Shown here piece by piece: positions 106 through 25,970 of a DNA stretch of 64,000 nt. The stretch spans positions 186,001-250,000 of the forward strand of contig NZ_KB907077.1 in assembly GCF_000381765.1 (NCBI RefSeq). Reading direction: 5' to 3'. Origin of the DNA: [Zimmermannella] faecalis ATCC 13722 (GTDB lineage: Bacteria > Actinomycetota > Actinomycetes > Actinomycetales > Microbacteriaceae). The notes below the pieces were generated by a model that had not been told where the DNA came from, ran no database searches, and saw only the letters and a program-made list of their open reading frames with translations. Numbering within the stretch: position 1 is the first letter of the stretch; every line of letters starts with the position of its first letter. The position numbers and the translations under genes are program-made.

Positions 106-119
106 TTGGACCGGTCCAA
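106..119. promoter_or_regulatory. Perfect 14-bp palindrome, candidate LacI-type operator
   Basis: TTGGACCGGTCCAA is a perfect palindrome with a central CpG, the usual form of LacI-family operators. It lies in the untranslated leader about 130 nt before the ATG at 253, just downstream of the candidate promoter. No regulator gene is next to it in the window, so the cognate protein is unknown. Confidence 0.4.
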
Positions 120-252
120 CGGTGGACTGGTGAGTGCGCACCACCCCTCGTCGAACCCTGACGAACACGAACTCGCACGAATCGATCGCCCGACACTCGT
201 CGGGTTCTCGAATTCGACGCGTCGTTCATTCAACTCACAAAGAGGTGATGAA

Positions 253-1275: not shown

Positions 1276-1313
1276 ACGCCCGGCTCCATGACCTCGAAAG
1301 ACGAGAACCACAC

Positions 1314-2359: not shown

Positions 2360-2363
<4 letters not shown>
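1314..2363 (+). CDS. Sugar ABC transporter permease (RbsC-like)
   Basis: Integral membrane subunit of the BPD_transp_2 family, 349 aa, forming the channel for the adjacent binding protein. The family-typical motif GGEVDLS is at residues 78-84, and many hydrophobic segments run from about residue 30 to the C-terminus. It starts 38 nt after the SBP stop, and its stop overlaps the next gene's ATG by 4 bp (ATGA), which indicates translational coupling with the ATPase. A normal member of the family with no visible damage. Confidence 0.88.
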
Positions 2364-3287
<924 letters not shown>

Positions 3288-3298
<11 letters not shown>

Positions 3299-4307
3299 CG
3301 TGCGGGCACTCAAGATTGGCGTGCTCGGGGCGTCGCGGATCGCCGAGAAGGCGATCACGCAGGCGAGTCGCGAGACTGGCGATCGACGGTACGCGGTCGC
3401 GGCGAGCAGCCGCGACCGCGCCGTCGCGTACGCCGAGCAGTACGGCTACGAGCGCGTGCACGAAGACTACGACGCGCTCGTGCGCGACCCCGAGATCGAC
3501 CTCGTCTATATCGGGCTCGTCAACGGGCTGCACGCGGAGTGGACCTCGCGGGCGCTCCGCGCGGGTCGCAACGTGCTCGTCGAGAAGCCGTTTGCGGCGA
3601 ACCTCGGCGAGTTCGAGGGCATCGCGGCCCAGCTCGAGTCGAGCGCGGGCTGGGTGTGGGAGGGGTTCCACTATCGGCATCATCCGGTAATGCGCCGGAT
3701 GCTCGACGCCGTCGCGACGGGGGAGCTCGGCGAGCTGCGGCGGGTCGAGGTGCGAATGTGCATGCCAAATCCCGGCGACGCCGACCCGCGGTGGTCGTTC
3801 GGCCTTGCCGGCGGCGCAATGATGGACGTCGGGTGCTACGCGCTGCACGCGGTGCGCGAGGTTGGCGACGTGCTCGGGCTTCGGGCGCGAGTGCTCGGCG
3901 CCACTGCCGAGGGTTGGGGCGCCGACGAGCGGGTGGATGCGCGGGTCACGGCGAACCTCGCGCTCGGCGAGGTGCCGGTGCGGCTCGAGGCGAGCATGAC
4001 CGCGCCCGAATTCGACTTTGGCCTGCGGATCGTGGGGGAGCGCGGGTCGGTGTTCGCGCCGTCGTTCGTGTTGCCCGTTGAGGACGACCGCGTCGTCGTC
4101 ACGGTCGACGGGCGCGAGCGCACCGAGCGCCTCGGCACGTCGTCGACGTACACGCACCAGCTTCAGGTTGTCGGCCAGGCGCTGCGCGAGGGCGAGCGGT
4201 CACTCGTGGAGCTCGAGCGATCGCGCACGAACGCGCGCCTCATCGACGAGGTCTATCGCGCGGCCGGAATGCCGCTGCGGCAATCGGTCACGGGCTCGCA
4301 TATGTGA
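3288..4307 (+). CDS. Gfo/Idh/MocA family NAD(P)-dependent oxidoreductase
   Basis: Predicted sugar or polyol dehydrogenase of 339 aa. The Rossmann glycine motif GVLGAS is at about 11-16, the family EKP motif (LVEKPF) at 99-101, and the conserved D180...H187 pair is in [13 protein letters not shown]. The GTG at 3288 overlaps the ATPase stop by 11 nt and is preferred; GTG 3300 is also possible. As the fourth gene of the run it probably oxidises the imported substrate. The substrate is not deducible. An inositol or scyllo-inositol dehydrogenase is one option, but the sequence differs clearly from the IolG-like protein at 41.7 kb. Confidence 0.75.
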
Positions 4308-4309
4308 TT

Positions 4310-4338
4310 TTGACACGACATACAAATCGCCGTACTAT
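4310..4338 (+). promoter_or_regulatory. Strong sigma-70-type promoter of the second ABC operon
   Basis: TTGACA (4310-4315), a 17-nt spacer and TACTAT (4333-4338) form a near-consensus housekeeping promoter in the gap after the oxidoreductase stop. It gives an untranslated leader of roughly 145 nt before the ATG at 4491. Confidence 0.75.
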
Positions 4339-4341
4339 GGA

Positions 4342-4361
4342 CTCACTGTCCGATCAGTGAG
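4342..4361. promoter_or_regulatory. Inverted-repeat operator candidate at the transcription start
   Basis: Perfect 7-bp arms CTCACTG and CAGTGAG are separated by tccgat. The repeat begins 3 nt after the -10 box, so it covers the expected transcription start, the usual place for a repressor operator. No regulator gene is adjacent. Confidence 0.5.
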
Positions 4362-4490
4362 ATTCAGGGTCGTAATGACGCGGCGAATCACACAGCTCCT
4401 CACGAGGGATGCGACGGGCGGGACACGCGCCGGGGAGGCCGGTGCGTCCATTCCCTGACCGTGCGCAGTGCTGCGCCGAAAGGACCCGTC

Positions 4491-5987
4491 ATGAGCGACG
4501 CAATTTTGCGGTTCGACGGCATCACGAAGAGCTTTCCCGGCGTGCGGGTGCTCGACGGTGTGACCTTCGAGCTGCGCCCCGGCGAGGTGCACGCACTCAT
4601 GGGCGAGAACGGCGCCGGCAAATCGACGCTCATGAAGATCCTCATGGGGATCTACCACGCCGACCAGGGCGAGGTGCTGCTCGCGGGCGAGCCCGCGCGC
4701 ATCAGCGGGCCGAGCGACGCGCTGAACCAGGGCGTCTCGATGATTCACCAGGAACTCAACCCGGTGCTCGACATGCAGGTGTTCGAGAACGTGTTCCTCG
4801 GCCGCGAGCTGCGAACCCGCGTTGGCCTCGCCGACGCGAAGCGCATGAAGGCCGAGACGACGCGGATTCTCGAGGAGCTCGACATCTCGGTGTCGGCGAC
4901 GCGAGAAATGCGCACGCTCTCGGTGGCGCAGATGCAGCTCATCGAGATCGCGAAGGCGATCGCGTTCGAGAGCAAGGTCGTCGTCATGGACGAGCCGACC
5001 TCGGCGATCACCGAGGCCGACGTCGAGACCCTCTTCGGGCACATCGAGCGGCTGCGGGCCTCGGGTGTCGCGATCATCTACATCTCGCACAAGATGGAGG
5101 AGATCTTCCGCATCTCCGACACGATCTCGGTGCTGCGCGACGGGCAGCTCGTGCACACGGCCCCCGCCGCGGAGCTCGACGAGCCGACCCTCATCCGTTA
5201 CATGGTCGGGCGCACGCTCGACGAGAATTTCCCGAAGCGCGAGGTGCCGATCGGCGATCCCGTGCTCGCCGTCACCGACTGGTCGAGCCCGCCCCTCGTG
5301 CGCGACGTCAGCATCGAGCTGCGCCAGGGCGAAGTGCTCGGCATTGGCGGCCTCGTCGGCGCCGGCCGCAGCGAGTTCGTCGAGTCGCTCTTCGGCATTC
5401 GGCCCGGTTCATCGCCCGAACCCGTTCGCGTTCGCGGCGAGGCGGTGCGCATTCGCCGGCCGCAGGACGCGATCAAGCTCGGCATCGCGCTCGTCACCGA
5501 AGACCGCAAGGTCACGGGGCTCAATCTCGAGGGCTCCGTGAGCGAAAACATCACGCTCGTCGGGCTCGGCAGCCTGTTCCCGAAGGGGATTCTGCACCGG
5601 AAGACCGAGACGAAGATCGCGAACGACTACATCGAGCGCCTGCGCATCCGTACGCCGAACAGCCAGCAGATCGTGTCGCGCCTGTCGGGCGGCAACCAGC
5701 AGAAGATCGTCCTCGCGAAGTGGCTCCTCACCGAGCCCGACATCATCATCTTCGATGACCCCACGCGCGGCATCGATATCGGTGCGAAGCGCGACATCTA
5801 CCACCTCATCGGCGACCTCGTCGAGCGCGGCAAATCGGTCGTGCTCATCTCCTCCGAGATGACAGAACTCATCGGCCTCAGCGACCGCATTCACGTCTTC
5901 GCCGAGGGCCGGGTGACCGGCACCCTCGACCGTCCCGATTTCTCGCAAGAACGCATCCTCGAGCTCGCCTCGCAATTCGAAAGTTGA
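4491..5987 (+). CDS. Sugar ABC transporter ATP-binding protein (RbsA-like, tandem NBD)
   Basis: Fused double ATPase of 498 aa, typical for the ribose/galactose/xylose importer family. The N-terminal Walker A GENGAGKST is at 38-46. The C-terminal half carries the family's degenerate P-loop GLVGAGRSE and an intact LSGGNQQK signature, so one site is probably catalytic, as is common in this family. The ATG at 4491 follows GAAAGGAC; the open frame back to 4461 is discounted. It is the first gene of an ATPase-permease-SBP operon behind the promoter at 4310. Confidence 0.88.
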   Translation: MSDAILRFDGITKSFPGVRVLDGVTFELRPGEVHALMGENGAGKSTLMKILMGIYHADQGEVLLAGEPARISGPSDALNQGVSMIHQELNPVLDMQVFENVFLGRELRTRVGLADAKRMKAETTRILEELDISVSATREMRTLSVAQMQLIEIAKAIAFESKVVVMDEPTSAITEADVETLFGHIERLRASGVAIIYISHKMEEIFRISDTISVLRDGQLVHTAPAAELDEPTLIRYMVGRTLDENFPKREVPIGDPVLAVTDWSSPPLVRDVSIELRQGEVLGIGGLVGAGRSEFVESLFGIRPGSSPEPVRVRGEAVRIRRPQDAIKLGIALVTEDRKVTGLNLEGSVSENITLVGLGSLFPKGILHRKTETKIANDYIERLRIRTPNSQQIVSRLSGGNQQKIVLAKWLLTEPDIIIFDDPTRGIDIGAKRDIYHLIGDLVERGKSVVLISSEMTELIGLSDRIHVFAEGRVTGTLDRPDFSQERILELASQFES

Positions 5988-5989
5988 CC

Positions 5990-6979
5990 ATGATGACCTC
6001 GGCACCTCCCACCGCAGCAGCAGCCGGCACGAAGCGTCGGTTCTCGAGCGGTTCGCTCCTCAAGGACGCGGGCCTCGCGATCATCTTCGTCGCGCTCGTG
6101 ATCGGCCTCACGCTCGCCTCGCCCAACCACTCGTTCCTCAGCCTGAACAACATCTTCCTGATCCTCGTGCAGACGTCGATCAACGGCATCCTCGCGATGG
6201 GCATGATGTACGTCATCATCTCGGGCCACATCGACCTCTCGGTCGGATCGACCGTCGGCCTCGCCGGTGTCGCGGCCGCGCTCGTCGCGATGCCCGGTGA
6301 ATATCCGCTCATCGTGCCGATCCTCGTCGGCCTCGCGGTCGGCGTCGGCGTCGGCCTCATCAACGGCATCGGCGTCGCGTACGGCGGCATTCCCTCGTTC
6401 ATCATCACGCTGGGAACGCTGACCGCGGTGCGCGGTATCGCCCTCATCGTCTCGGGAGGCGCCCCGGTTTCGGGCCTCAGCCCCGAGTTCCAGGGGCTCG
6501 CCTCGGGCCGCGTGTTCGGCATCCCCGTGCTCGCGATCTACTTCGTCGTCATCGCGGTCATCGCCGCGTTCGTGCTCCGCAAGACCGTGTTCGGGCGCCG
6601 CATCTACGCGCTCGGTGGGAACCCGCAGGCGGCCGCTGTCTCGGGCATCAACGTCAAGCGGCTGACGGTCATGCCCTTCATCATCGCGGGGCTCCTCGCA
6701 GGCCTGTGTGGCGTGCTGCTCGCCTCGCGCACGTTCACGGGCTCGCCGACGGCGGGCGAGTCGTACGAGCTCGACGCGATCGCCGCGGTCGTCATCGGTG
6801 GCGTGAGCATGACCGGCGGTCGCGGGAAGGCGTTCGGCGTCGTCATCGGCGCGCTCATGATCGCCGTCATCGCGAACGGCCTCGACATCCTCGGCATCAA
6901 CTCGAACATGCAGATGGTCATCAAGGGCGCGATCATCGCCCTCGCCGTGCTCATCGATGTGAAGACCCGTCGCGACTGA
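5990..6979 (+). CDS. Sugar ABC transporter permease (RbsC-like)
   Basis: BPD_transp_2 permease of 329 aa with the motif GHIDLSVGS early in the protein and repeated hydrophobic helices to the C-terminus. It begins 2 nt after the ATPase stop. Tandem ATG codons at 5990 and 5993 are both possible starts. It partners the tandem ATPase before it and the lipoprotein receptor after it. The sequence is complete and ordinary for its family. Confidence 0.87.
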   Translation: MMTSAPPTAAAAGTKRRFSSGSLLKDAGLAIIFVALVIGLTLASPNHSFLSLNNIFLILVQTSINGILAMGMMYVIISGHIDLSVGSTVGLAGVAAALVAMPGEYPLIVPILVGLAVGVGVGLINGIGVAYGGIPSFIITLGTLTAVRGIALIVSGGAPVSGLSPEFQGLASGRVFGIPVLAIYFVVIAVIAAFVLRKTVFGRRIYALGGNPQAAAVSGINVKRLTVMPFIIAGLLAGLCGVLLASRTFTGSPTAGESYELDAIAAVVIGGVSMTGGRGKAFGVVIGALMIAVIANGLDILGINSNMQMVIKGAIIALAVLIDVKTRRD

Positions 6980-7041
6980 CCCGGTTGCGCAGCCACATTC
7001 AACCAACCCGAATCACCACATTTCGTTCGAAGGAGAACACC

Positions 7042-7989
7042 ATGGCAAAGAAGCTCACCAAGCTCGTGACGCTCGCCGCGGCCGCGGCGCTGCTGCTCAC
7101 GGGCTGCGCCGAGGGCGGCGGCGCCGGCGAGACCGGCGGCGCGAGCGACGGCAAGATCGCGCTCATCATGAGCCACATGACCAACGAGTTCACGACCACC
7201 GTGGCGAGCGCGGCCGAGGCGAAGGGCGAGGAGCTCGGCTACGAGGTCACCGTGTTCGACAGCGGCCAGGATGCGTCGACGCAGGTCTCGCAGATCGAGC
7301 AGGCCGTGTCGCAGGGCTACGACGGCATTCTCGTCGAGCCCGTTTCGACCGACGGTGTCGTGCCCGGCCTCTCTGCGGCGAACGAGGCCGGCGTGCCGAT
7401 CGCGACGATCGTGCAGAAGGCCTCGCAGCAGGACCTCGCGGCTGCCTACATCGGCGGCGACGAGGTCGCGGCCGGCAAGCTCCAGATGGAGCAGGCGATC
7501 GAGGCGATCGGCGGCGAGGGCAAGATCGCCGTGCTCTACGGCCCGATGGGCAGCGACGCGCAGATCGCCCGCAATGACGGCTACGAGCAGGCGCTCGCCG
7601 ACTACCCCGACGTCGAGGTCGTCTTCGACAAGACCGCGAACTGGGTCACGGCCGAGGCGCTCACGCTCGTCGAGAACTGGTTCTCGACCGGCACCGAGAT
7701 CGACGCGATCGTCGCGCAGAACGACGCGATGGCGGTCGGCGCCGTGCAGGCGGCCGAGAACGCCGGCAAGAGCGACGTGCAGGTCTTCGGCATCGACGCG
7801 ACGTCCGACGGCATCGACTCGATCAACGCTGACGGAATGGTCGGCACGGTGTCGCAGGACACGGCCGGCATCGGCGAGCTCGGAGTCGAGACGATGGTGC
7901 AGCTGATTGACGGCGAAGAGGTTGAGGCCGAGGTGCTCACCGAAGCGGTGTGGATCACGAAGGAGAACGTCGACACGCTCTCCGAGTAG
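7042..7989 (+). CDS. Sugar ABC transporter substrate-binding lipoprotein (RbsB-like)
   Basis: Receptor of 315 aa for the preceding permease and ATPase. Signal peptide with a KKLTK basic start and lipobox LLTGC (Cys22); the mature part begins with a PBP1 fold (KIALIMSH). The ATG at 7042 is preceded by AAGGAGAAC. The open frame to 6706 overlaps the permease and is ignored. The ligand is unknown; the fold and operon order suggest a pentose, hexose or polyol. A strong hairpin (8009-8057) follows the gene. Confidence 0.87.
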   Translation: MAKKLTKLVTLAAAAALLLTGCAEGGGAGETGGASDGKIALIMSHMTNEFTTTVASAAEAKGEELGYEVTVFDSGQDASTQVSQIEQAVSQGYDGILVEPVSTDGVVPGLSAANEAGVPIATIVQKASQQDLAAAYIGGDEVAAGKLQMEQAIEAIGGEGKIAVLYGPMGSDAQIARNDGYEQALADYPDVEVVFDKTANWVTAEALTLVENWFSTGTEIDAIVAQNDAMAVGAVQAAENAGKSDVQVFGIDATSDGIDSINADGMVGTVSQDTAGIGELGVETMVQLIDGEEVEAEVLTEAVWITKENVDTLSE

Positions 7990-8008: not shown

Positions 8009-8057
8009 CGCCGCCGTGCTCCTCGCGACCTCCTAGTCGTCGAGGAGCGCGGCGGCG
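8009..8057. terminator. Bidirectional terminator hairpin
   Basis: Arms 8009-8025 and 8041-8057 pair over 17 bp with a single G-T wobble and a 15-nt loop. It lies between the convergent SBP and acyl-CoA dehydrogenase genes. The dehydrogenase stop codon (8033-8035) sits in the loop and its last codons form one arm. No T-tract, as is usual in high-GC actinobacteria. Confidence 0.65.
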
Positions 8058-9202
8058 AACATTGGCCGCGCGACATCCCAGCCCGACGGGTGGAACATCC
8101 CCGCGAGCGCGTCGCGATACAGCCGGTTCAGCTCAGTGCCATTGTCGAAGCCGCGGCCGCCCACACAGCGGTACGCGGCTTCGACGCTGTCTCGGGCCGC
8201 CTCGGTCGCGCTGAGCTTCGCGCTCACGAACTTTCGCGGCCAGGCGCTGCCGTGGTCGACGAGCTCGTCGAACTCGCGCGTGTAGGTCTCGAGCTGCGCA
8301 GCCACGGGTTCGAGCCGCATCGCGGCGTCGGCGAGGCGCACCCGAAACTCGGGGATCTCGGCGAACGTCGACTCCGCCTTGCGTGAGGTCTTCGCGCGCA
8401 GCGCCTCGGCCGCCACGGTGAGCGACCGCTCGGCGAGGCCGGCGTAGACCGACGCGATGAGCAGCTGAAAGTTCGCGTTGATCGCGAAGGGCAGCGAGTC
8501 GGGGTTCAGCCCGTCGGGGAGTCGGCGCACGACCCGGTCGCCCGGCAGCCGTGCCCCGTCGAGCTTCGTCGAGCGGCTCTGCGTCGCGCGCATCCCCATC
8601 GGGTCCCAGTGGGGCGACGACGAGATGCCGTCGGTCTCGCGGTCGAGCACGCCGTACACGACGGTCGGATGCTCGGGGTCGCTCGCGTCGAGCCCGTGGG
8701 CGATGAGGCGGGTCCAGACCGGCGTGAGCGAGGTGAAGATCTTCGTGCCGGTGAGGCGGTAGCCGTCGCCGTTGGGCGCGGCCTCGGTCGTCGAGCTGTA
8801 GAGCACCCAGTCGTTGCCGGCCTCGCTGATGCCGAAGGCGTACACCTCGTCGGCGGCCGCGTCGTCGAGCACGAACCGCAGTGAGTCGTCACCGCGTTCG
8901 AGCAGCGCCCGCGCGACGCCCGTGCACACGAGGTGCATATTGATGCCGAGCGCCGTCGCGGGCGCGGCCGTCGCGAGCCGCCGCTGCAGCCGCGACACCT
9001 CGTTCAGCGTCAGGCCCGGGCCACCGAGCTCGGTCGGCACGAACAGCCGCAGGTAGCCCGCGTCGCGGAGCTCCTCGAAGTCCTCGGAAAAGAACCGGTT
9101 GTTGAGGTCGTAGCCGTCGGCGCGCTCGCGGAATCGCGCGAGGCGCGCGTCGGGCAGGTACGTTTCGGCGAGTTCGCGGTGGCGGGCTTCGCGGTCAGAC
9201 AA
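8033..9202 (-). CDS. Acyl-CoA dehydrogenase family flavoprotein
   Basis: 389-aa member of the acyl-CoA dehydrogenase superfamily. An N-terminal helical domain (FSEDFEELRDAGYLRLF region) is followed by a beta domain around residues 120-220 and a C-terminal helical domain with the RLYRD motif. Expected role: FAD-dependent alpha,beta-desaturation of an acyl thioester, or flavin monooxygenation, since some members are hydroxylases. I could not place the catalytic Glu with confidence. It is last in a leftward run ligase-ketosynthase-dehydrogenase, starting 41 nt after the ketosynthase stop, so it probably acts on the same acyl chain. Confidence 0.75.
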   Translation of the reverse strand: MSDREARHRELAETYLPDARLARFRERADGYDLNNRFFSEDFEELRDAGYLRLFVPTELGGPGLTLNEVSRLQRRLATAAPATALGINMHLVCTGVARALLERGDDSLRFVLDDAAADEVYAFGISEAGNDWVLYSSTTEAAPNGDGYRLTGTKIFTSLTPVWTRLIAHGLDASDPEHPTVVYGVLDRETDGISSSPHWDPMGMRATQSRSTKLDGARLPGDRVVRRLPDGLNPDSLPFAINANFQLLIASVYAGLAERSLTVAAEALRAKTSRKAESTFAEIPEFRVRLADAAMRLEPVAAQLETYTREFDELVDHGSAWPRKFVSAKLSATEAARDSVEAAYRCVGGRGFDNGTELNRLYRDALAGMFHPSGWDVARPMFAAALLDD

Positions 9203-9243
9203 TGCGGCTCCTCGGCTGGGTGGGCGGTCGGCTCGCGCAGTTC

Positions 9244-10536
9244 TTAGACCGTGCGCAAGAGCACCGCACCATTGTGCCCCCCGAAGCCGAACGAATTCGA
9301 GAGCACGCTCGACACGCGCGCCGATCGCGCCTCGGTCACGACGTCGAGGTCGGGGAACGCCGGGTCGGTGAGGTTCAGGGTTGGCGGTAGTACGCCGTCG
9401 CGGAGGGTCAGGGCGGCGAGCATCGCCTCGAGCACGCCGGATGCGCCGAGCAGGTGCCCGGTCGACGACTTCGTTGCGCTCACGGGCACTTCACCGAGGC
9501 GGCCGCCGAACACGCGCTCGAGCGCGAGCGCCTCGGTCTCGTCGTTCAGCTTCGTGCTCGTGCCGTGGGCGTTGATGTGGCCCACCTCGTCGGGACGCAT
9601 CCGGGCGTCGGCGAGGCAGGCCTGCATCGCCGCGATAGCGCCGCGGCCCTCGGGATGCGGCGCGGTCGGGTGGTGCGCGTCGCTCGCGGCGCCGAACCCG
9701 GCGAGCTCGGCAATTGGCGTGCCACCCCGCGCGAGCACCGCATCCTTCGCCTCGAGCAGGATTGCGGACGCGCCCTGCGACATGACGAATCCGCTTCGCG
9801 CCGCGTCGAAGGGGCGGCTCGCGGCGGTGGGGTCGTCGTCGAAGCCGCTCGCGAGGGCGCGCAGGTTCGCGTTCGATAAGAGGTTGACGGCGCCGAGGCA
9901 GTCTTCGTAGCCGACGACGAGCACGGTGTCGGCGTAGCCGTGGCGAATGCGCCGCAGCCCCTCGCCGAGCGCGACGGCGCCGCTCGCGCAGGTCGCCGAG
10001 ACCGCGCCGGCCGCGCCGAGCGCGCCGTAGCGCTGGCTCAGCAGCGCGGCCGCGGCGTCGGGGGCCCCGTGCATCGCGAGGGCCGCGGGCACGGCGCGCG
10101 GGCCGAGGTCGTCGAGCGCGCGGGTCGCGTCCTGCATCGCGCGCACGGGGCCGGAGCCGGTTGCCGCGATGATCGAGAACCCGTATTCGGCACCGGAGGG
10201 CATCGGCGGGTCGCCCTGCGCCATTGCCTCGTCGCCCGCGGCGATCGCCCACAGCAACACGTCGGCGAGGCGCCGTGACTCGCGTTCGGGGAGGAGCCCA
10301 GCGTCAATGAAGCCGCGCACCTGGCCGCCGATGCGCACGCGCAGGTCGGCGAATTCGGCGCCCTCGAGCCGCGAGATCGCGCTGCGGCCCTCGCGCACCG
10401 ACTGCCACGTCGACTGGGCGTCGAGCCCGCTCGGGGTGACGGCGCCGAGGCCCGTGATGACGACCTCGCGGCGGTCGGGCGACTGCGCTCGGCGCGCGCG
10501 GCGCGACGAATGCGACTGGGGAACCGAGTGCGTCAC
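9244..10536 (-). CDS. Beta-ketoacyl synthase (FabF-type ketosynthase)
   Basis: 430-aa condensing enzyme joining an acyl thioester with a malonyl-type extender. The active-site Cys is C183 (SATCASG), with catalytic H324 (NAHGTS), K356 and H361 (STGH), so the KAS I/II triad is intact. The GTG start at 10536 overlaps the upstream ligase stop by 4 bp (GTGA); the longer open frame to 10758 runs through the ligase and is rejected. It stands apart from any fab cluster and no acyl carrier protein gene is nearby, which suggests a specialised pathway rather than housekeeping fatty acid synthesis. Confidence 0.85.
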   Translation of the reverse strand: MTHSVPQSHSSRRARRAQSPDRREVVITGLGAVTPSGLDAQSTWQSVREGRSAISRLEGAEFADLRVRIGGQVRGFIDAGLLPERESRRLADVLLWAIAAGDEAMAQGDPPMPSGAEYGFSIIAATGSGPVRAMQDATRALDDLGPRAVPAALAMHGAPDAAAALLSQRYGALGAAGAVSATCASGAVALGEGLRRIRHGYADTVLVVGYEDCLGAVNLLSNANLRALASGFDDDPTAASRPFDAARSGFVMSQGASAILLEAKDAVLARGGTPIAELAGFGAASDAHHPTAPHPEGRGAIAAMQACLADARMRPDEVGHINAHGTSTKLNDETEALALERVFGGRLGEVPVSATKSSTGHLLGASGVLEAMLAALTLRDGVLPPTLNLTDPAFPDLDVVTEARSARVSSVLSNSFGFGGHNGAVLLRTV

Positions 10537-11996
10537 AGGCGCACCGCCCCGTCGAGGAGGTCGGCGGTCGCGCCGCGGCGCACCTTGCCGCCGACCGTGC
10601 GGGGGAGCTCGGGCAGCCGATAGAAGCGGCGCGGCACGAACTGCGGTGCGAGCCGGCCGCGCGCGTGCTCGAGCAGCACCGACTTCGCGGGCGAATCGCC
10701 CTCGACGACGAGCGCGACAACGCTGCCGAGCGACGCGTCGGCGACCGGCACGGCACACACCTCGCCGAGGCCGGCGACCGCGTCGAACGCCCGCTCGATC
10801 TCGGGCAGCGAGACCTTGTGCCCGCCCGTGACGACGATGTCGCCCGCGCGGCCGAGCAGTTCGAGCCGCCGCCCGCGCAGCCGCGCCTGGTCGTGCACGG
10901 TCGCCCAGCCGCGCGCGTCGCGCAGCCGCTCGTCGGTCGTCGCGGGCAGGTAGCCATCAGAGGTCGCGTCGGCGCGGATCCACAGCTCGCCGATCTCGCC
11001 GTCGGGCAGTGGCACACCGTCGGCGTCGCGCACCTCGGCGTCGATGCCGTCGTAGAGGGCGATCTCGCCGTCGTCGGTGCGGCTATCGCCGATGAATCCG
11101 ATCTCGGCGGCGCCGTAGTAGCTGATGAGTCGGGCGTTCGGCAGTGCGCGGGCCGCTGCGGCCCGGATGCGCGGCGGCAGGTTCGCGCCCCCGGCAACGA
11201 GCAGGTTCACGCCGGCGAAGCGTTCGGGCGCGCGCTGCGCCGCGAGTGCCAGCGCCTCGATGACGGCGGGGACCGCGACGACGCGGGTAATGCCCTCGGC
11301 CTCGATACGGCGGCCGGCCTCGAGTGGGTCGAACCGGTCGCCGACGTGGCAGGTGCCGCCTGAGGCGAGGCACTCGATGAGGGCGTAGAGGGTGAGGCTG
11401 TAGCTGAGTGGGCCGGGCGCGAGCGTCGCGGTGCCGGGAGTGGGCTCGAGGTGGGCGCTCGAGACGGCGAAGTTTGCTCGGTATTGGGCGCGCGTCTTGT
11501 AGAACGCCTTTGGGTCGCTCGTCGTGCCCGACGAGAACAGCATGAGGAACGGCTCGGCGCTGTCGCGCACGGTCGGCGCCGCCGTCGGCTCGACCCGGGC
11601 CTCGAGGGCTCGGAACTCATCGAGGCTGATCACCCGGCCTGCCCAGTCGGCGTCGGCGAGTGCCGCGGCGAGGTCGGCCGAGTCGGTAATGACGAGGGTC
11701 ACGCCCGTGCCGGCGGCGACTCGCACGCGATGGGGGAGCGGCCACCGCGGGTCGATCGTCGCGACGGTCGCGTCGTATCCCGCGAGGCCGGCGACGAAGC
11801 GGGCCGTGTGCACGGCGTCGGTGCTGCTCACGGCGACGACGGGCCGCGTGGAGTGGTCGAGCTCGGTCACGGCGGCCCAGATGCGTGCGGCGTCGCCGGG
11901 CAGTTCGCCAAACGTGATGCGGGCACCGGGCCCGACGATCGCGGGGAGTTCGGGGTCGCGCGCCGCGACCTCCAGAATCTTGCCCGTGATCGGCAC
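10533..11996 (-). CDS. AMP-dependent acyl ligase (ANL superfamily)
   Basis: 487-aa adenylate-forming enzyme. The P-loop-like motif SSGTTSDPK is at 155-163, an A5-like ISYYGAAEIGF region lies near residue 290, and a C-terminal GGKVRRG holds the probable catalytic Lys. It should activate a carboxylic acid as acyl-AMP and transfer it to CoA or a carrier. The GTG at 11996 is chosen because GGGAGGG lies 4 nt upstream; the frame is open to 12038. First gene of the ligase-ketosynthase-dehydrogenase unit. The acid substrate is unknown. Confidence 0.8.
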   Translation of the reverse strand: MPITGKILEVAARDPELPAIVGPGARITFGELPGDAARIWAAVTELDHSTRPVVAVSSTDAVHTARFVAGLAGYDATVATIDPRWPLPHRVRVAAGTGVTLVITDSADLAAALADADWAGRVISLDEFRALEARVEPTAAPTVRDSAEPFLMLFSSGTTSDPKAFYKTRAQYRANFAVSSAHLEPTPGTATLAPGPLSYSLTLYALIECLASGGTCHVGDRFDPLEAGRRIEAEGITRVVAVPAVIEALALAAQRAPERFAGVNLLVAGGANLPPRIRAAAARALPNARLISYYGAAEIGFIGDSRTDDGEIALYDGIDAEVRDADGVPLPDGEIGELWIRADATSDGYLPATTDERLRDARGWATVHDQARLRGRRLELLGRAGDIVVTGGHKVSLPEIERAFDAVAGLGEVCAVPVADASLGSVVALVVEGDSPAKSVLLEHARGRLAPQFVPRRFYRLPELPRTVGGKVRRGATADLLDGAVRL

Positions 11997-12145
11997 GTTT
12001 CCCTCCCGTAGACGGTGCACCTCGGCGTCGGCGCGCAAACAAATACTCTAACCGCGGCCGGCCCGGAGTCTTCGAGATTCGCGGCGAACTCTCCGGAACC
12101 TCACCCCCACGGTTCGTACCGTTGGGGCGTGAGTGAGTGCGAAGC

Positions 12146-12916
12146 ATGACGGGGCACCGGGACGACCTCGGTCGTCGCATCGCCGCCGAGGGAATTCTGC
12201 TCGCGGGCGGCGGCGCGGCAATCCTGCTGCAGCTCGCGCATCCGCTCGTCGCCCGCGGGGTCGCGGGCTACTCCGACTTCACGAACGCGCCGCTGCGGCG
12301 CCTCGAAGGCACCCTCAACTACGTCACTGCGGTCGTGCACGGCGACGACGATGACCGGCGCGCGCTGCGACGAATCGTGAACCGACGGCACGCGAGGGTC
12401 CCCGGCGCGTTCGATCCCGAGGCGCAGCTCTGGGTCGCGGCGACGCTGTTGCGCTCGGCCGAGTCGTCGTACGCACGGGCGTTCGGCCGACTCACGCTCG
12501 CCGAGCGCGAGGCGCTGCGGGCGACGTTCGAAACGATCGGCACTGAATTGCAAATGCCGCCCGGCGCCTGGCCCGCGAGCGTCGCGGAATTCGACGCCTG
12601 GTGGGCGGCGAGAATTGCCGAATCGCACGTGAGTGACAACGCGAAGAAGGTATTTGCCGAGCTTTGTCGGCCCGCATCCGCGCCGCGCTGGTTACGGGTG
12701 GTGCTCCCGATAGTGTGGCGCGTCGCGTTGGCGCAGCTCCCGGCGAGGCTTCGACGCGAGTTTGCCCCGAATTGGCGACGGCGAGATCGCTTTATCGCCG
12801 AGCTATTTTGGGTGATTGTCGTTCCGGGATATCGGATGCTGCCGTGGCACGTGCGCAGCTGGCCGATGCGACGCCAATTACGAGCATTGCAGCGAATGAT
12901 CGCCACCGCGCCATAA
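12146..12916 (+). CDS. MpaB-like oxygenase family protein (DUF2236)
   Basis: 256-aa protein resembling the DUF2236/MpaB family, whose members include haem-dependent oxygenases and latex-clearing relatives. Family features seen are an early QLAHPLVARGV segment and a helical core with R/H-rich motifs (RRIVNRRHARV). Start ATG 12146 or GTG 12137; neither has a clear ribosome site. It is transcribed divergently from the ligase cluster with only about 150 nt between start codons, so shared control or pathway is possible. The specific reaction is unknown. Confidence 0.65.
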   Translation: MTGHRDDLGRRIAAEGILLAGGGAAILLQLAHPLVARGVAGYSDFTNAPLRRLEGTLNYVTAVVHGDDDDRRALRRIVNRRHARVPGAFDPEAQLWVAATLLRSAESSYARAFGRLTLAEREALRATFETIGTELQMPPGAWPASVAEFDAWWAARIAESHVSDNAKKVFAELCRPASAPRWLRVVLPIVWRVALAQLPARLRREFAPNWRRRDRFIAELFWVIVVPGYRMLPWHVRSWPMRRQLRALQRMIATAP

Positions 12917-12988: not shown

Positions 12989-13336
12989 TTAGTTGTTCGC
13001 CTCGTCGTACGCGTCGAGCACGTCTTGCGGAACTCGGCCGCGGTTGGCGACGGTGTAGCCATTTGCGGTCGCCCACTTGCGAACGGCCGAAAGGTCGCGC
13101 TTCGGGCCTGCAGTGGGGAGCAGGGTGCGGGTGCCACGCTGGGCGCGGCCGCCGACGCGACGCGCCGACTTGACGTAGCTGCTCAGCGTTTCGCGAAGGC
13201 CCTCGGCGTTCGCGTCGCTGAGGTCGATTTCGTATTCAACACCGTCGAGACCGAACTTCACGGTTTCGCCCTGGCCCTCGGTGAGCTGGGTGCCGTCGAG
13301 ATCATCGATCAGCTGGTAGACAACTTTGCGTGCCAC
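12989..13336 (-). CDS. lsr2: Lsr2 family nucleoid-associated protein
   Basis: 115-aa xenogeneic silencer that binds AT-rich DNA in the minor groove and bridges it. The N-terminal dimerisation domain (VARKVVYQLIDDLDG) fits Lsr2. The C-terminal DNA-binding domain carries the AT-hook-like RGR at 99-101 after NGYTVANRGR. Length agrees with the family (about 110 aa). The GTG at 13336 is chosen because AAGGAG (13344-13349 on the minus strand) stands 7 nt ahead. The open frame to 13396 is discounted. Confidence 0.95.
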   Translation of the reverse strand: MARKVVYQLIDDLDGTQLTEGQGETVKFGLDGVEYEIDLSDANAEGLRETLSSYVKSARRVGGRAQRGTRTLLPTAGPKRDLSAVRKWATANGYTVANRGRVPQDVLDAYDEANN

Positions 13337-13414
13337 GGATGCACTCCTTGAGATATTCGAGCTGTACTCTGCAATTGTGGAGCGCATCCGTGGCATTTCG
13401 CAAATCAGAATGCT

Positions 13415-13451
13415 GAATTCACAGAATTCTCATTACCACGCGTGTTGTCAA
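13415..13451 (-). promoter_or_regulatory. AT-rich lsr2 promoter region with twin GAATTC repeats
   Basis: On the minus strand TTGACA occupies 13451-13446, and two GAATTC hexamers lie at 13415-13420 and 13424-13429, 3 nt apart. The 13350-13451 interval is markedly richer in A/T than its surroundings. A clear -10 is not evident. AT-rich DNA upstream of lsr2 would suit autoregulation. Confidence 0.4.
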
Positions 13452-13470
13452 TTTGAATTGCCGCCGCGAA

Positions 13471-15951
13471 TCACGCTCGGGCGAGTGCCTGCGCGGGCGG
13501 GATACGCGAGGCCAGCCACGACGGGCGCGCACCGGCAATTACTCCGAGTGCCACCGCGGCGGCAATGACGACGCCGATACCCAACCACGGAACGCTAATG
13601 GCAATCGGGCCGCCATCGGCAATCATCGTCGGGACTGCGCTGACGCCGAGCGGAATTCCGATGACAATCGAGAACAGTGCACCGACGAGCGCGAGCGCGA
13701 CCGCTTCGAGGAGCACCATGAGCCGCACGCGTCCGCGGGTCACGCCGAGGGCCCGCAGCAGGGCGAGCTCGCGGCGGCGCTCGGCGACGGCGAGCGCGAC
13801 GACGCTCGCGAGGCCAATCACCGAGATGACCACAGTGAGGCCGAGCATCGCGAGCACGAACGCGACGACGAGGTTCACGATCTGCTCGTAGACCTGCTGT
13901 TCGGCGATCGGGCCGAGCACCTGCAGCTCGGGGTTGTCGTTCTGCACCTGGGTGATCGCGTCGGCGAGCGTGCCGATCTGCCCGTCGGCGGCGTAGAGCC
14001 AGAGCATCGCGTCGGGCTGCACCGCCGAGAACTCGTCGAGCGTCGACGACGAGACCGCGCCGACCGACGTGCCGGCCATCAGGTTCGTGAGGCCGTCGAC
14101 GAGGTCGTCGACCACGACGGTGAGTTCGATCGACGTGCCATCGGTGTCGGTGAACGTTGCCGTGGCGCCGTCGTCGACCTCGAGCATCGCGGCGTTCGTC
14201 TCGGAGAGCACGACCTCGCCGTCCTCGATCGGCGACTTCAGGTCGGCCGCGGTCGGCTCCGGCAGGGTCGTGAGGGTCGTCAGGCTCGACGGGGAGTCGG
14301 CGCTCGACTCGAGTTCGACCCGCGAGGTTGCCTCCGACGCCTCGAGCCCGCGGGAATCGAGCACCGGCGCGAGCGCCGACGAGTCGAGCGATTCGCCCGA
14401 CTGCGAGGTGATGACCGCGTCGTACGAGAACTTCGCGTCGAGGCGCTCGCCCAGCGTCGCGTTCACCGACTGCACGCCCGTGAGCATCGCAAGAATCAGG
14501 CTGCCGCCGAGCGAGATCGCGAGCACGACCGTGCCGGAGCGGCGCGAGGTGCGCACGAGATTCTCGCCCGCGAGCTTCGCGATGGGGCCGAACGCCCCGA
14601 GCAGGCGGCCGATCACCGGCATGAGCACGCGCACGAGCAGCGGCACGAGCACGATGAGCCCGATCGCGAGTACGACGCCCGCGCCGATGAGCACGAGGGG
14701 ATTCCGGAGCGCGACGGCACCGACGAGTCCGGCGATACCGAGCGCGGTCACGAGGCCGCCGAAGACCCAGGCGAACACGCTGCGGCGACGCTGGTCGGCG
14801 CCGGTCGCGTTCGCCTCCGAGAGCGCCGCGATGGGGGAGAGCCCGCGCAGACGAGCGGCTGGGGCCCACGCCGCGAACAGCGTCACGGCGACCGTGACGA
14901 CGAGCGCGGCGATCGCCCAGCCCACCGCGAAGCTCGGGCCGCCGCCCGCGAGATCGGCGACCACCGCGAGCATCCACCCGAGGCCGAAGCCGATCGCGAT
15001 GCCGACAACGGCACCCGCGACACCGATGAGGAGCGCCTCGGCGAGCACCGTGCGCTGCACCTGGGCGCCCGTCGCGCCGACGAGCCGCAGCAGGCCGTTC
15101 TCGCGCAGGCGCTGCGCGAGCAGCACCTCGAAGGTGTTGCGAATCACCATCGCGGCGGCGAGCAGCGCGATGAGCACGAAGATGAGGAACATTGTCGCGA
15201 GCGCGTCGGTGCCGCCCGTGAGCCCGTCGATGAGCTGCTGGGTGTACGCATCGACCGTGACCGCCTCGGGTGCGTCGTCGCCCGTGCCGAACTGCTCGGC
15301 GAACACCGCGTTAAGCGAGTCGATCGTCGCCGCGATGTCGCTGCCCGGGGTGGCCTGAATGATGAGCGACTCGACCTGCGCGTCGTCCATCGAGAACATG
15401 CCGCTCCCCGCAAACAGCTGGGTGATGCCCGCGCTCGCGTTCGCGGGCACCGTGACGACGCCGACGACGGTCACGGCGCTGCCGGCCTCGCCGTAGCTCG
15501 CGAGCTCGAACTCGTCGCCGAGCTCGAGGTGGAGCCGGTCGAGGGTCGACTGGGTCGCGACGATCTCGTTGTCGCCCGACGGCCACTCGCCCTCGGCGAG
15601 GTCCATCCAGCGCAGCGAGGGCTCGTCGGCGACGCCGTACACGTTCACGTCGGAGCGGGCGCCCTCGACGATCGACTGGGCGTACGCGACGTAGCTCGGC
15701 TCGATCGTCTCGACGCCGGGCACCTGCGCGGCCGCGTCAAGCGTGGCCTGCGGGTCGGCCGTTTGCACGACGATGTCTGAGGACGAGTACGGCGCCGCAA
15801 CCGCGAGGTTGAGCGACGCCTGCATCGTCGTAATGAAGGTGCCCGTCGCCATGAGCGCCATCGCGCTGAGCAGGGCGGCCATGACGATCGCGGCGACCCG
15901 GCGCGGGCCGCGGCGAATCTGCTTGGTGGCGAGGTTCAGCGTTGCGCTCAT
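13471..15951 (-). CDS. FtsX-type ABC transporter permease (duplicated)
   Basis: 826-aa MacB/FtsX-family permease with two FtsX domains. There is one TM helix at the N-terminus and a large extracytoplasmic domain. A TM cluster follows near residues 250-500, then a second extracytoplasmic part (about 510-690) and three C-terminal helices. Such proteins export lipids or peptides or act mechanically at the envelope rather than import sugars. The ATG at 15951 overlaps the stop of the ATPase gene by 4 bp. The pair is divergent from a two-component system, a common layout for envelope-stress-regulated exporters. Confidence 0.85.
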   Translation of the reverse strand: MSATLNLATKQIRRGPRRVAAIVMAALLSAMALMATGTFITTMQASLNLAVAAPYSSSDIVVQTADPQATLDAAAQVPGVETIEPSYVAYAQSIVEGARSDVNVYGVADEPSLRWMDLAEGEWPSGDNEIVATQSTLDRLHLELGDEFELASYGEAGSAVTVVGVVTVPANASAGITQLFAGSGMFSMDDAQVESLIIQATPGSDIAATIDSLNAVFAEQFGTGDDAPEAVTVDAYTQQLIDGLTGGTDALATMFLIFVLIALLAAAMVIRNTFEVLLAQRLRENGLLRLVGATGAQVQRTVLAEALLIGVAGAVVGIAIGFGLGWMLAVVADLAGGGPSFAVGWAIAALVVTVAVTLFAAWAPAARLRGLSPIAALSEANATGADQRRRSVFAWVFGGLVTALGIAGLVGAVALRNPLVLIGAGVVLAIGLIVLVPLLVRVLMPVIGRLLGAFGPIAKLAGENLVRTSRRSGTVVLAISLGGSLILAMLTGVQSVNATLGERLDAKFSYDAVITSQSGESLDSSALAPVLDSRGLEASEATSRVELESSADSPSSLTTLTTLPEPTAADLKSPIEDGEVVLSETNAAMLEVDDGATATFTDTDGTSIELTVVVDDLVDGLTNLMAGTSVGAVSSSTLDEFSAVQPDAMLWLYAADGQIGTLADAITQVQNDNPELQVLGPIAEQQVYEQIVNLVVAFVLAMLGLTVVISVIGLASVVALAVAERRRELALLRALGVTRGRVRLMVLLEAVALALVGALFSIVIGIPLGVSAVPTMIADGGPIAISVPWLGIGVVIAAAVALGVIAGARPSWLASRIPPAQALARA

Positions 15952-16682
15952 GCTCCGACTCCCGCCATCACCGAGCTGATCTGCTCGTAGTCGGCACCCG
16001 TGAGCTCGTGGGCGATGCGCCCGTCGACGAGGATCAGCACGCGGTCGGCGTAGGCGGCCGCGGCCGGGTCGTGCGTCACCATGACGATCGTCTGGCGGCG
16101 CTCGCGGGCGGCGCGCTGCATGCTCTCGAGCAGCTCGCGGCCCGTGCGCAGGTCGAGCGCGCCCGTCGGCTCGTCGGCAAAGACGACGGCGGGTTCGGTG
16201 ATGAGCGCCCGCGCGACCGCGACGCGCTGCTGCTGACCGCCCGAGAGCTCGTGCGGCAGGTGGCTCAGGCGGCCGAGAATCCCGAGCTGCGACGCGAGGC
16301 GCTCGAGGGCGCCGACGTCGACGCGCCCGCCCGCGAGCCGCACGGGCAGCTCGATGTTCTCACGCGCCGAGAGCGTCGGCACGAGGTTGAACGACTGGAA
16401 CACGAACCCGAGCCGGTCGCGACGCAGCTGCGTGAGGCGCGCATCCGGCATGCCGAGAATCGAGGCGCCGTCGATCGCGACGTCGCCGCTCGTCGGGGTG
16501 TCGAGGCCGGCGAGCAGGTGCATGAGGGTCGACTTGCCCGAGCCCGAGGGGCCCATGATCGCGGTGAACTCGCCGCGGGCGAAGTCGATATCGACGCCGG
16601 CGACCGCGTGCACCGCGGCGTCGGCTTGTCCGTAGGTCTTCGTGAGGCCTCGGCAGAGAACTGCCGGCTGCTGCTGGTTCAT
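15948..16682 (-). CDS. ABC transporter ATP-binding protein (LolD/MacB type)
   Basis: 244-aa ATPase partner of the FtsX permease. Walker A GPSGSGKST is at 44-52, signature LSGGQQQR and Walker B VVFADEPTGALD are in the second half; the D-loop DEPTGALD is characteristic of the LolD/MacB/FtsE group. The ATG at 16682 is preceded by AAGGAG. First gene of the leftward two-gene operon, with 151 nt separating it from the divergent histidine kinase gene. Confidence 0.9.
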   Translation of the reverse strand: MNQQQPAVLCRGLTKTYGQADAAVHAVAGVDIDFARGEFTAIMGPSGSGKSTLMHLLAGLDTPTSGDVAIDGASILGMPDARLTQLRRDRLGFVFQSFNLVPTLSARENIELPVRLAGGRVDVGALERLASQLGILGRLSHLPHELSGGQQQRVAVARALITEPAVVFADEPTGALDLRTGRELLESMQRAARERRQTIVMVTHDPAAAAYADRVLILVDGRIAHELTGADYEQISSVMAGVGA

Positions 16683-16743
16683 GAGGGCTCCTTCGCGGGG
16701 CGGTTGCTGGATGCTTCGAAGCTATTTGCGCGCCGGCTCGGGC

Positions 16744-16780
16744 GGCATGGTGCGCAAGTCTCGTTCGAGAGGACCATGCC
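16744..16780. promoter_or_regulatory. Long-spaced inverted repeat between exporter and two-component genes
   Basis: GGCATGGT (16744-16751) and ACCATGCC (16773-16780) are perfect reverse complements, 21 nt apart, in the 151-nt divergent intergenic region. It may be a binding site for the NarL-type regulator encoded at 18078 or a hairpin in the leader of the ABC operon. A TAGGCT -10-like box lies close to the kinase start. Confidence 0.4.
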
Positions 16781-16833
16781 CTCCCGACGGATGTATACCT
16801 GCGGACGATGGGGCGGCTCCTAGGCTGGAACGC

Positions 16834-18081
16834 ATGCTCGACACCTTTATCGCGACGCGCGAGCGACCCATGCGGGTCGTCGTCACCGACTGCATCGGTG
16901 CGCTCGTCGTTGGTGCGTTCGCGCTGCTCGTCGGCGGGGTCGGGATGGGCTTTGGCGGCGCGCAGCAGGTGCTCTACATTCCGCTCGTCGTGCTCATGTG
17001 CGTGCGCCGCAGCGCCCCGATCGTGTTCCTGTTTGGCACGACGATGCTCTCGGGCCTCAACTACCTCACCTCGTCGTTCTACTTCGACGGCGTCGTCTAC
17101 GGCGCGACCCTCGTCGGGGTGTACGGGGCGGCGGCGTTCGGCCGCAAGCGCGACCGGCCGCTCTGCCTCGTGCCGCCGGTGCTCGCGATCACGATCGTCG
17201 GGCTGCAGCTGTTCACGCCCTGGTTCGAGGTGTGGCCGTTTGGCGGGCAGTGGGATACGGAGGCGACGCTCGTCGACCGGGCGGAGTCGTTCCTGCTGCT
17301 CGCGGTGCCGATCGCGCTCGCGTTCATCGCGGCGTGGGCGCTCGGCATGCTGCGCCGCCAGCAGCTCGTGGAGGTCGTGCGTGCGCAGGAGCGGGCCGAG
17401 CTGCTGCGCCGCGACGCGCATCGTCTCGCCGAGCTCGCGGTGTCGGACGAGCGCAACCGAATCTCGCGCGAGATGCACGACATCATCGCCCACTCTCTCG
17501 CGTCGATCGTGACGCTCGCCGAGGGCGGCCGGCTCGCGGCACACGAGCGGCCCGAGCTCGCGACCGAGATTTTCGGCAAGATCGGCGACACGGGCCGCGG
17601 CGCCCTCGGCGACGTGAAGCTGCTGCTGCGGAACGTCGACTCGACGCAAGACGACGTGCCGGCGCGGGGCGTGGGGGAAATCCCCGATCTCGTCGAGGGT
17701 GTGCGCGTCGGTGACGGCGCCGAGGCCGCGATCGAGTTCCGCGAGTCGGGCACCCCGGTGGAGCTCCCGGCCGGGATGCAGCTCGCGATGTACCGCGTCG
17801 CGCAGGAGTCGCTCACGAACATGCTCAAGCACGCGCCCGGTGCTCGCGGCGAGGTCGCGCTCGAGTGGGGTGACGGGGCCGTGCGGCTGCGGGCTATTAA
17901 CTCGCTCGTGCCGGGTGCCGCGCCGCCGTCGAGCGATCGGCGCGGCCTCGCCGGTATGCGGGAGCGGGTCGAGCTGTTCGACGGCTCGCTCGACGTGACG
18001 ACGACGGCGAGTAGTTTTGAGGTGTTGGCGACCTGGCCGCTGCCGGGCACGAACGCCCCGATCACGAAGGACGAATCATGA
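16834..18081 (+). CDS. Sensor histidine kinase (HisKA_3, NarL-system type)
   Basis: 415-aa membrane kinase. Hydrophobic helices cover residues 20-175 and form the sensor part with no large extracellular loop. A short coiled linker leads to the HisKA_3 dimerisation domain with phospho-acceptor H215 (REMHDIIAH), then a HATPase_c domain. The ATG at 16834 is the sensible start; the open frame to 16642 enters the divergent promoter. It overlaps the response regulator gene by 4 bp. Divergence from an FtsX-type exporter suggests it senses an envelope or antimicrobial signal and controls that exporter. Confidence 0.88.
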   Translation: MLDTFIATRERPMRVVVTDCIGALVVGAFALLVGGVGMGFGGAQQVLYIPLVVLMCVRRSAPIVFLFGTTMLSGLNYLTSSFYFDGVVYGATLVGVYGAAAFGRKRDRPLCLVPPVLAITIVGLQLFTPWFEVWPFGGQWDTEATLVDRAESFLLLAVPIALAFIAAWALGMLRRQQLVEVVRAQERAELLRRDAHRLAELAVSDERNRISREMHDIIAHSLASIVTLAEGGRLAAHERPELATEIFGKIGDTGRGALGDVKLLLRNVDSTQDDVPARGVGEIPDLVEGVRVGDGAEAAIEFRESGTPVELPAGMQLAMYRVAQESLTNMLKHAPGARGEVALEWGDGAVRLRAINSLVPGAAPPSSDRRGLAGMRERVELFDGSLDVTTTASSFEVLATWPLPGTNAPITKDES

Positions 18082-18755
18082 CCATCCGCGTGCTCATCGT
18101 CGACGACCAGTCGCTCGTGCGGGAGGGGCTCGCGCTCATCGCCTCGTCGGCGCCCGACCTCGAGGTGGTCGGCAAGGCCGAGAACGGCCGCGAGGGCGTC
18201 GACCTCGCCCTGAAGCTGCGGCCCGACGTCGTGCTCATGGACGTGCGGATGCCCGAAATGGACGGCATCGAGGCGACGACGCGGCTGCTGCGCCACGGCG
18301 CCGAGCAGTCGGAGCTGCGCGTGCTCGCGCTCACCACCTACGACTCCGAAGACTTCGCGGTGCGGATGCTCGCGGCTGGCGCCTCGGGGTTCCTGCTCAA
18401 GGACGCGCCGGGCGAAGACCTGATCCGCGCAATTCGCACGGTGTACGAGGGCAACGCGATCATCGACCCGAGCATGACCCGCACGCTGCTGCACCGCTTC
18501 ACGAGCCCGGGCCGCGTCACGAGCGAGCCCGTCGATCGGGATACGCTGGTCGCGAACCTCACCGAGCGCGAGCGCGAGGTGCTCGCGCAACTCGTGCGGG
18601 GGGTCTCGAACGCCCAGATTGCCCGCGAACTGTTCCTCGCCGAGGTCACCGTGAAGACCCACGTCGGGAGAATTCTCGACAAGCTTGACCTGCCAGATCG
18701 TGTGCATGTCGTGATTTGGGCCTACGAAAGCGGTTATATAGACCGGGAATTATGA
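18078..18755 (+). CDS. NarL/LuxR-family response regulator
   Basis: 225-aa two-component regulator paired with the preceding kinase. Receiver domain with the acidic pair D9-D10 and phospho-acceptor D55 (VVLMDVRMPE). The C-terminal LuxR-type helix-turn-helix begins at LTEREREVL, with VSNAQIARELFLAEVTVKTHV in the recognition region. The ATG overlaps the kinase stop (ATGA). The likely target is the divergent ABC exporter promoter. Confidence 0.92.
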   Translation: MTIRVLIVDDQSLVREGLALIASSAPDLEVVGKAENGREGVDLALKLRPDVVLMDVRMPEMDGIEATTRLLRHGAEQSELRVLALTTYDSEDFAVRMLAAGASGFLLKDAPGEDLIRAIRTVYEGNAIIDPSMTRTLLHRFTSPGRVTSEPVDRDTLVANLTEREREVLAQLVRGVSNAQIARELFLAEVTVKTHVGRILDKLDLPDRVHVVIWAYESGYIDREL

Positions 18756-20695: not shown

Positions 20696-20774
20696 CGGCG
20701 GCGCGCCGAGGCGCGCGTACGATGGGAAATCCGTGCGGTCGTCTGGCCGCTCGCGCCGAACCGAGGGGAATGCG

Positions 20775-25969: not shown

Positions 25970-25970
25970 G

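Follow-up and report, generated by a model that had tools for sequence, protein, structure and literature searches.

A conserved ligase–ketosynthase–flavoprotein gene trio in [Zimmermannella] faecalis: a candidate minimal route for extending and oxidising a carboxylic acid

What might a bacterium make with an acid ligase, a single condensing enzyme and a flavoprotein of acyl-coenzyme A (CoA) dehydrogenase fold, encoded head to tail with no dedicated carrier protein? The question is raised by a 64,000-nucleotide stretch of [Zimmermannella] faecalis ATCC 13722 (Microbacteriaceae, order Actinomycetales; assembly GCF_000381765.1, contig NZ_KB907077.1, forward-strand positions 186,001 to 250,000), here called the window. 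A first-pass annotation had placed an acyl ligase, a ketosynthase, an acyl-CoA dehydrogenase and an MpaB-like oxygenase there and proposed that the first three activate, extend once and desaturate or hydroxylate an acyl chain. All four genes are found at the positions given, in the Pfam families that had been guessed, and the interpretation as a whole is partly supported. We favour, at a confidence that is evenly balanced, a three-gene operon that lengthens a non-standard carboxylic acid once and oxidises it once. The features concerned, in window coordinates, are as follows.

10533 to 11996, minus strand: AMP-dependent acid ligase, 487 residues from GTG 11996 (open frame to TTG 12038); Pfam AMP-binding 8e-40
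9244 to 10536, minus strand: FabF-descended ketosynthase, 430 residues from GTG 10536, with a remodelled acyl pocket (S128, N218, N222)
8033 to 9202, minus strand: flavoprotein of acyl-CoA dehydrogenase fold, 389 residues, probably a group D flavin mono-oxygenase; Pfam Acyl-CoA_dh_2
10533 to 10536, minus strand: 4-base overlap of the ligase stop and the ketosynthase GTG start
12001 to 12007, minus strand: GGGAGGG, likely ligase ribosome-binding site; GGAGG-like sites lie at the equivalent place in most relatives
12137 to 12916, plus strand: divergent MpaB/Lcp-like (DUF2236) gene, Pfam MPAB_Lcp_cat 2.8e-49, outside the conserved unit

Both AMP-binding and AMP-binding_C are matched by the ligase, the N- and C-terminal ketoacyl-synt domains by the ketosynthase and Acyl-CoA_dh_2 and Acyl-CoA_dh_1 by the flavoprotein. 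The overlap of ligase and ketosynthase through a GTG start, already remarked in the first reading, recurs in 32 of the 50 loci in which both genes were placed automatically. We prefer GTG 11996 over TTG 12038 as the ligase start because 48 of 50 ligase relatives have an in-frame start followed by P-I/F/V-T, mostly after a GGAGG-like site (the exceptions are L032 and L034; L and G numbers are our handles for loci and genomes).

The trio is a real conserved unit, in which order and strand are kept and the families diverge together. A profile of the flavoprotein matched 206 stretches of the genome collection, of which 151 encode a relative, and the best 80 were retained as loci. The flavoprotein of 48 of these loci reaches at least 56% identity with that of the window. 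Of the 48 close loci, 44 have all three genes on a single strand in the order ligase, ketosynthase, flavoprotein; neighbourhood conservation, the check suggested at the outset, thus finds the three genes kept together. Of the remaining four, L065 and L084 have the ketosynthase at a contig start, and L058 and L095 have no ligase and ketosynthase beside the flavoprotein. Among the other 32 loci, with flavoproteins at most 54% identical, the ketosynthase occurs in none and a 30% ligase match in one (L108). All three genes of L115 are partial matches only. When the distance matrices of the three families are compared across 43 loci, the Spearman coefficients are 0.904, 0.865 and 0.828, none of 999 permutations being as high. 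The joint tree (L056, L063, L065, L078, L084 and L115 left out) mostly follows genera, with Brevibacterium daeguense, next to Gulosibacter, as one exception; the alignments leave out the ligase of L056 and the ketosynthases of L063, L065, L078 and L084.

Counted by genome, a flavoprotein scoring at least 637 bits is present in at least 28 of 396 genomes drawn from the order, a lower bound with at most four candidates scored per genome, and the next score is 500.7. By coordinates, a trio-type ligase lies on the same contig and strand in all 28. Three more genomes have the ligase (G338, G144 and G413), and in G338 and G413 it is accompanied by an adjoining ketosynthase and flavoprotein; in G144 the ketosynthase is 1.6 kb from a contig end, and this locus (L031) may be a trio interrupted there. 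The trio ketosynthase is found as one copy per genome in 53 of 57 Brevibacterium-group genomes. One variation in layout is seen in G160, where a YfcC-like transporter gene separates ketosynthase from flavoprotein; upstream of that trio on the same strand (L168:2150-12970) are carboxyltransferase-type, biotin-carboxylase-like and dehydrogenase genes.

Two loci count against the operon reading. Leucobacter musarum (L095) has the flavoprotein without the trio ketosynthase, and its genome shows only a FabF-like ketosynthase, at 337.5 bits; in Cryobacterium Y11 (L058) the flavoprotein is unlinked and a ligase-ketosynthase pair lies elsewhere in the genome. The flavoprotein may therefore also act alone. 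An alternative makes the trio a catabolic or sulfur/nitrogen-acquisition unit, with the flavoprotein as its principal enzyme and the other two handling the acid around it. Plasmid relatives of the flavoprotein (40-47% identical) lie near genes of that kind in two of three regions opened, one on a Ti plasmid with luciferase-like oxygenases and sulfonate-type ABC genes and one in Variovorax with msuE and luciferase-like oxygenases, but the third region, in Deinococcus, has none of these genes. In the window's genome an NtaA/DmoA-type mono-oxygenase gene comes directly after a second ligase copy, and seven Microbacterium-type loci have sulfatase-like and SsuA-like genes (named by reading the sequences, without a family search) near the trio, but such genes are not beside it in the other lineages examined. 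A condensing enzyme with an intact decarboxylating set would also be unusual in catabolism, and we consider this explanation unlikely.

We return to the extension and oxidation reading and to what its flavoprotein would do. Aligned to four true dehydrogenases from the fetched loci, the flavoprotein has Pro372 at the usual catalytic-Glu position and Phe245 at the isovaleryl-CoA-type position, the two places where acyl-CoA dehydrogenases have this residue. Pro372 is invariant and His371 nearly invariant in 40 flavoprotein relatives. A profile compared with solved sequences is led by 5gj7/5z8t, KijD3, a nitrososynthase, DnmZ and DszC, and an AlphaFold model (mean predicted local distance difference test score, pLDDT, 89.5) has the acyl-CoA dehydrogenase fold with 5z8t, titled a flavin-containing mono-oxygenase, as its best match (Z 42.5, root-mean-square deviation 2.7, 378 residues aligned). 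A literature search on 5gj7 and 5z8t found nothing relevant, and passages of PMC5481743 searched for the catalytic base did not give it. Group D mono-oxygenases are described as having the acyl-CoA dehydrogenase fold and taking reduced flavin from a partner (PMC6165268, PMC13352529). The trio flavoprotein is probably a member of this group, and of the two outcomes originally offered we prefer hydroxylation over desaturation because both catalytic-Glu positions are non-acidic.

Several results weigh against an oxygenase. A second DszC (5xb8) falls below several dehydrogenases in the profile ranking, and a single-sequence search places DszC under short-chain dehydrogenases. The top NCBIfam model, above SfnB and DszC, is the acyl-CoA dehydrogenase family Rv1679/FadE16, at 94.8 bits against a cut-off of 600. 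In the fold search many dehydrogenases come next at Z of about 40, close enough to the 42.5 of 5z8t that fold decides little between the two classes. No flavin reductase gene keeps a constant place beside the trio; only in three Gulosibacter-type genomes does a nitroreductase-family gene, a possible reductase for the flavoprotein, come after it. A true dehydrogenase, in a trio that activates, extends once and desaturates an acyl chain, could thus claim the fold, the Pfam domains and the best NCBIfam model, but neither known base position carries an acidic residue, the proline and histidine are maintained in the 40 relatives and oxygenases head the solved-sequence matches. We regard this version as quite improbable.

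More distant relatives of the flavoprotein occur in other settings. Agrobacterium is the source of 37 of its 50 plasmid matches, and a search of PHROGs with the flavoprotein gave no match. On the Ti plasmid L132 a relative of about 40% identity (9971-11176) lies between two peroxidase-related genes, in surroundings with a haloalkane dehalogenase, a GMC oxidoreductase, luciferase-like oxygenases and sulfonate-type ABC genes. In ten loci that have no ligase and ketosynthase (L113, L116, L117, L121 and L122 among them), a short gene of a single family, coding for about 89 residues, is close to that of the flavoprotein.

The ligase appears catalytically complete: S170-T173, K177, E312, D383, R397 and K485 (numbered in the 501-residue frame) are invariant in all 29 ligases compared and belong to the adenylation motifs of the ANL superfamily, final lysine included. 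Its solved-sequence profile matches lean to aryl acid ligases, with 4-chlorobenzoate ligase at the top and fatty acid ligases among them. The fold matches, however, are tied, 50 rows at Z 39-42 spreading across aryl, acyl and amino acid ligases, and the substrate is not readable from sequence or fold. On plasmids the ligase has no match at 1e-40. Its best curated model is PRK07638, of the YhfT type, and this model is also the starting point for a different explanation: salvage or chain remodelling of the yhfS-yhfT kind, in which the ligase activates a scavenged, possibly biotin-related acid and the ketosynthase replaces a thiolase. Among five opened loci of distant ligase relatives (29-36% identical), a thiolase-cluster gene adjoins the ligase in four (L035, L036, L038, L039) and a BioY- or CbiQ-type gene is near it in four (L035, L037, L038, L039). 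Staphylococcus aureus yhfS-yhfT is repressed by BirA with biotin (PMC6391492), which also favours this explanation. The score, however, is 158.6 bits against a PRK07638 cut-off of 518, thiolase, BioY- and CbiQ-type genes are absent beside the trio and no bioB over cut-off is found in the window's genome; a salvage role of this type seems to us rather improbable.

The same genome holds a second copy of the ligase, 47% identical, on the minus strand of L040. It runs directly into an NtaA/DmoA-family luciferase-like mono-oxygenase gene, the two being covered by L040:11003-12547 and L040:9651-11261, and beside it are genes for a family-5 solute-binding protein, a double ABC ATPase and another luciferase-like protein.

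The extension step of our preferred reading would fall to the ketosynthase. Read from GTG 10536, the numbering C183, H324, K356 and H361 given for its catalytic set is exact, and the four residues show no variation among the aligned trio ketosynthases (14 of 14) or in a larger set (48 of 48). Its leading solved relatives are FabF proteins, and it scores 378.7 bits on the FabF model TIGR03150, below the cut-off of 493.75. We compared all 52 ketosynthase rows, incomplete ones included, with a housekeeping set of 60 FabF proteins, of which 30 come from the Brevibacterium group and the other 30 from the genus and family to which the window belongs. The catalytic Cys, His, Lys and His and the gating Phe are identical across both groups. 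Three further positions, which have roles in the acyl pocket of FabF, differ. At the position of Escherichia coli Ile108, all 60 FabF proteins have Ile, whereas the trio enzyme has Ser in 46 of 48 (Ala in one, a gap in one); at Phe202, Phe in 60 of 60 is replaced by Asn in 48 of 48; and at Gly198, where FabF has Thr, Pro or Cys, the trio enzyme has Asn in 47 of 48 and His in one. The same Ser, Asn and Asn occur in four ligase-ketosynthase pairs with no flavoprotein in the stretch (L031-L034, of which L031 is possibly cut by the contig end); the signature therefore tracks the ligase, not the flavoprotein. We read these substitutions as making the pocket more polar and less obstructed than it is in FabF, and they point to ordinary condensing chemistry on an unusual acyl partner. 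That the trio enzyme might be the sole FabF of the genome, a circumstance named beforehand as telling against the proposal, is ruled out by a normal FabF in a separate FabD-FabH-ACP-FabF set elsewhere (ACP, acyl carrier protein), which also bears out the earlier remark that the trio ketosynthase stands outside any fab cluster. The weakest alternative, a spare fatty acid elongation set with a ligase for reusing fatty acids from outside the cell and a ketosynthase in reserve for FabF, has the FabF ancestry and intact catalytic set in its favour but is very unlikely, given pocket positions that differ from FabF almost without exception, a score under the FabF cut-off and the normal FabF already present.

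As the first-pass annotation had noted, no carrier protein is encoded nearby. PP-binding is matched twice in the whole genome, both times on a contig other than that of the window: one match is the stand-alone ACP flanked by FabH and FabF, and the other lies inside a 1382-residue AMP-binding/PP-binding/hexapeptide protein. Ketoreductase, dehydratase and thioesterase families, likewise reported as missing, are found in none of the 19 of 22 predicted genes scanned in 1-26266 (those at 20733-21266, 21266-21775 and 22517-26266 fall outside the scan). With no carrier or reductase in the unit and one stand-alone ACP in the genome, the unit would therefore have to draw malonyl-ACP and reduced flavin from the cell.

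We propose the following sequence of events for the operon. The ligase would adenylate the acid and form its thioester, with CoA or AcpP. The ketosynthase would load the acyl group on Cys183 and condense it once with malonyl-AcpP taken from fatty acid synthesis, and a beta-keto thioester would result. Supplied with reduced flavin by a reductase encoded outside the operon, the flavoprotein would oxygenate either the starter or the beta-keto product, with no desaturation, and the predicted outcome is a small oxygenated keto-acid or ketone. More tentatively, and with somewhat less confidence than in the single extension and oxidation themselves, we suggest a minimal carrier-less condensation route. 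Here the ligase would supply the ketosynthase and its rebuilt pocket with an acid that is not a fatty acid and is probably polar or aromatic, and a group D oxygenase would complete a small signal or metabolite, near-universal in Brevibacterium and patchy in Microbacteriaceae. Searches within open-licence papers found no description of such an operon. Several actinobacterial genera retain the block, nearly as core genes in the Brevibacterium group, which points to a small molecule, or a route for processing an acid, that they have in common. The unit is small enough to be rebuilt in vitro from its three proteins with AcpP and a flavin reductase added. For tracking it, the pocket of the ketosynthase provides a sequence signature.

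The conserved unit ends at these three genes. The MpaB-like gene is indeed divergent, as first described, but as a fourth member it was rejected: it stands beside the trio only in the window and in two close Gulosibacter-type genomes (L024 and L025/L052). A larger conserved cluster was ruled out as well, the neighbours, grouped over 51 loci with the gene orders of 24, being lineage-specific. Ten spot checks of neighbours gave a histidine kinase, DXP synthase, ABC1 kinase, sigma factor, BNR-repeat protein, phosphate transporter, GAPDH, PALP-family enzyme, HAD hydrolase and AI-2E transporter. An MFS gene recurs at loci of the Gulosibacter and Microbacterium types, and amidohydrolases recur in Brevibacterium and Microbacterium; neither is universal. 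No shared operator was seen upstream of the trio; a TATACT or TAGACT box precedes the ligase in many Brevibacterium and Microbacterium-type loci, in line with the trio having its own promoter. On one side of the trio in the window (12989-18755) are an Lsr2 gene, the genes of an FtsX-type permease and its ABC ATPase, and a divergent pair encoding a histidine kinase and a response regulator; the first three of these genes are near the trio in L024 and L025 too. On the other (106-7989), a Gfo/Idh/MocA oxidoreductase gene separates two sugar-type ABC transporter sets, all running towards the trio.

Several known systems resemble the trio in part. In the Pqs quinolone signal pathway a ligase makes an acyl-CoA that PqsD condenses once with malonyl-CoA or malonyl-ACP, PqsD being able to take general malonyl-ACP, and the flavin mono-oxygenase PqsH acts later (PMC4807248). 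The trio, as read here, would work on the same layout as PqsA-PqsD-PqsH, with a ligase, a single-condensation ketosynthase and a flavin mono-oxygenase. PqsD, however, is FabH-like, and because the trio's condensing enzyme is FabF-like the trio is not a member of the alkylquinolone pathway; it also has no PqsBC counterpart. PqsH belongs to a different mono-oxygenase class from the trio flavoprotein. With the YhfT/YhfS pair the trio shares the nearest curated ligase model and the pairing of a ligase with a Claisen enzyme, but it has a ketosynthase in place of the thiolase, an added flavoprotein, no adjoining biotin genes and a score far below cut-off. Type II polyketide synthase and fatty acid synthase clusters differ from it in that the trio has no dedicated carrier protein in the cluster. 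FabF (beta-ketoacyl-ACP synthase II, KAS II) shares ancestry, the Cys-His-Lys-His set and the gating Phe with the trio ketosynthase, which differs by its Ser, Asn, Asn pocket, its sub-cut-off score, its coupling to a ligase and its place outside a fab cluster. Finally, the group D flavin mono-oxygenases (KijD3, the nitrososynthases, DszC and 5z8t) share with the trio flavoprotein the fold and the missing Glu at the dehydrogenase positions; the trio protein, for which oxygenation is a prediction, differs from them in having no fixed reductase gene and in being coupled to a ligase and a ketosynthase.

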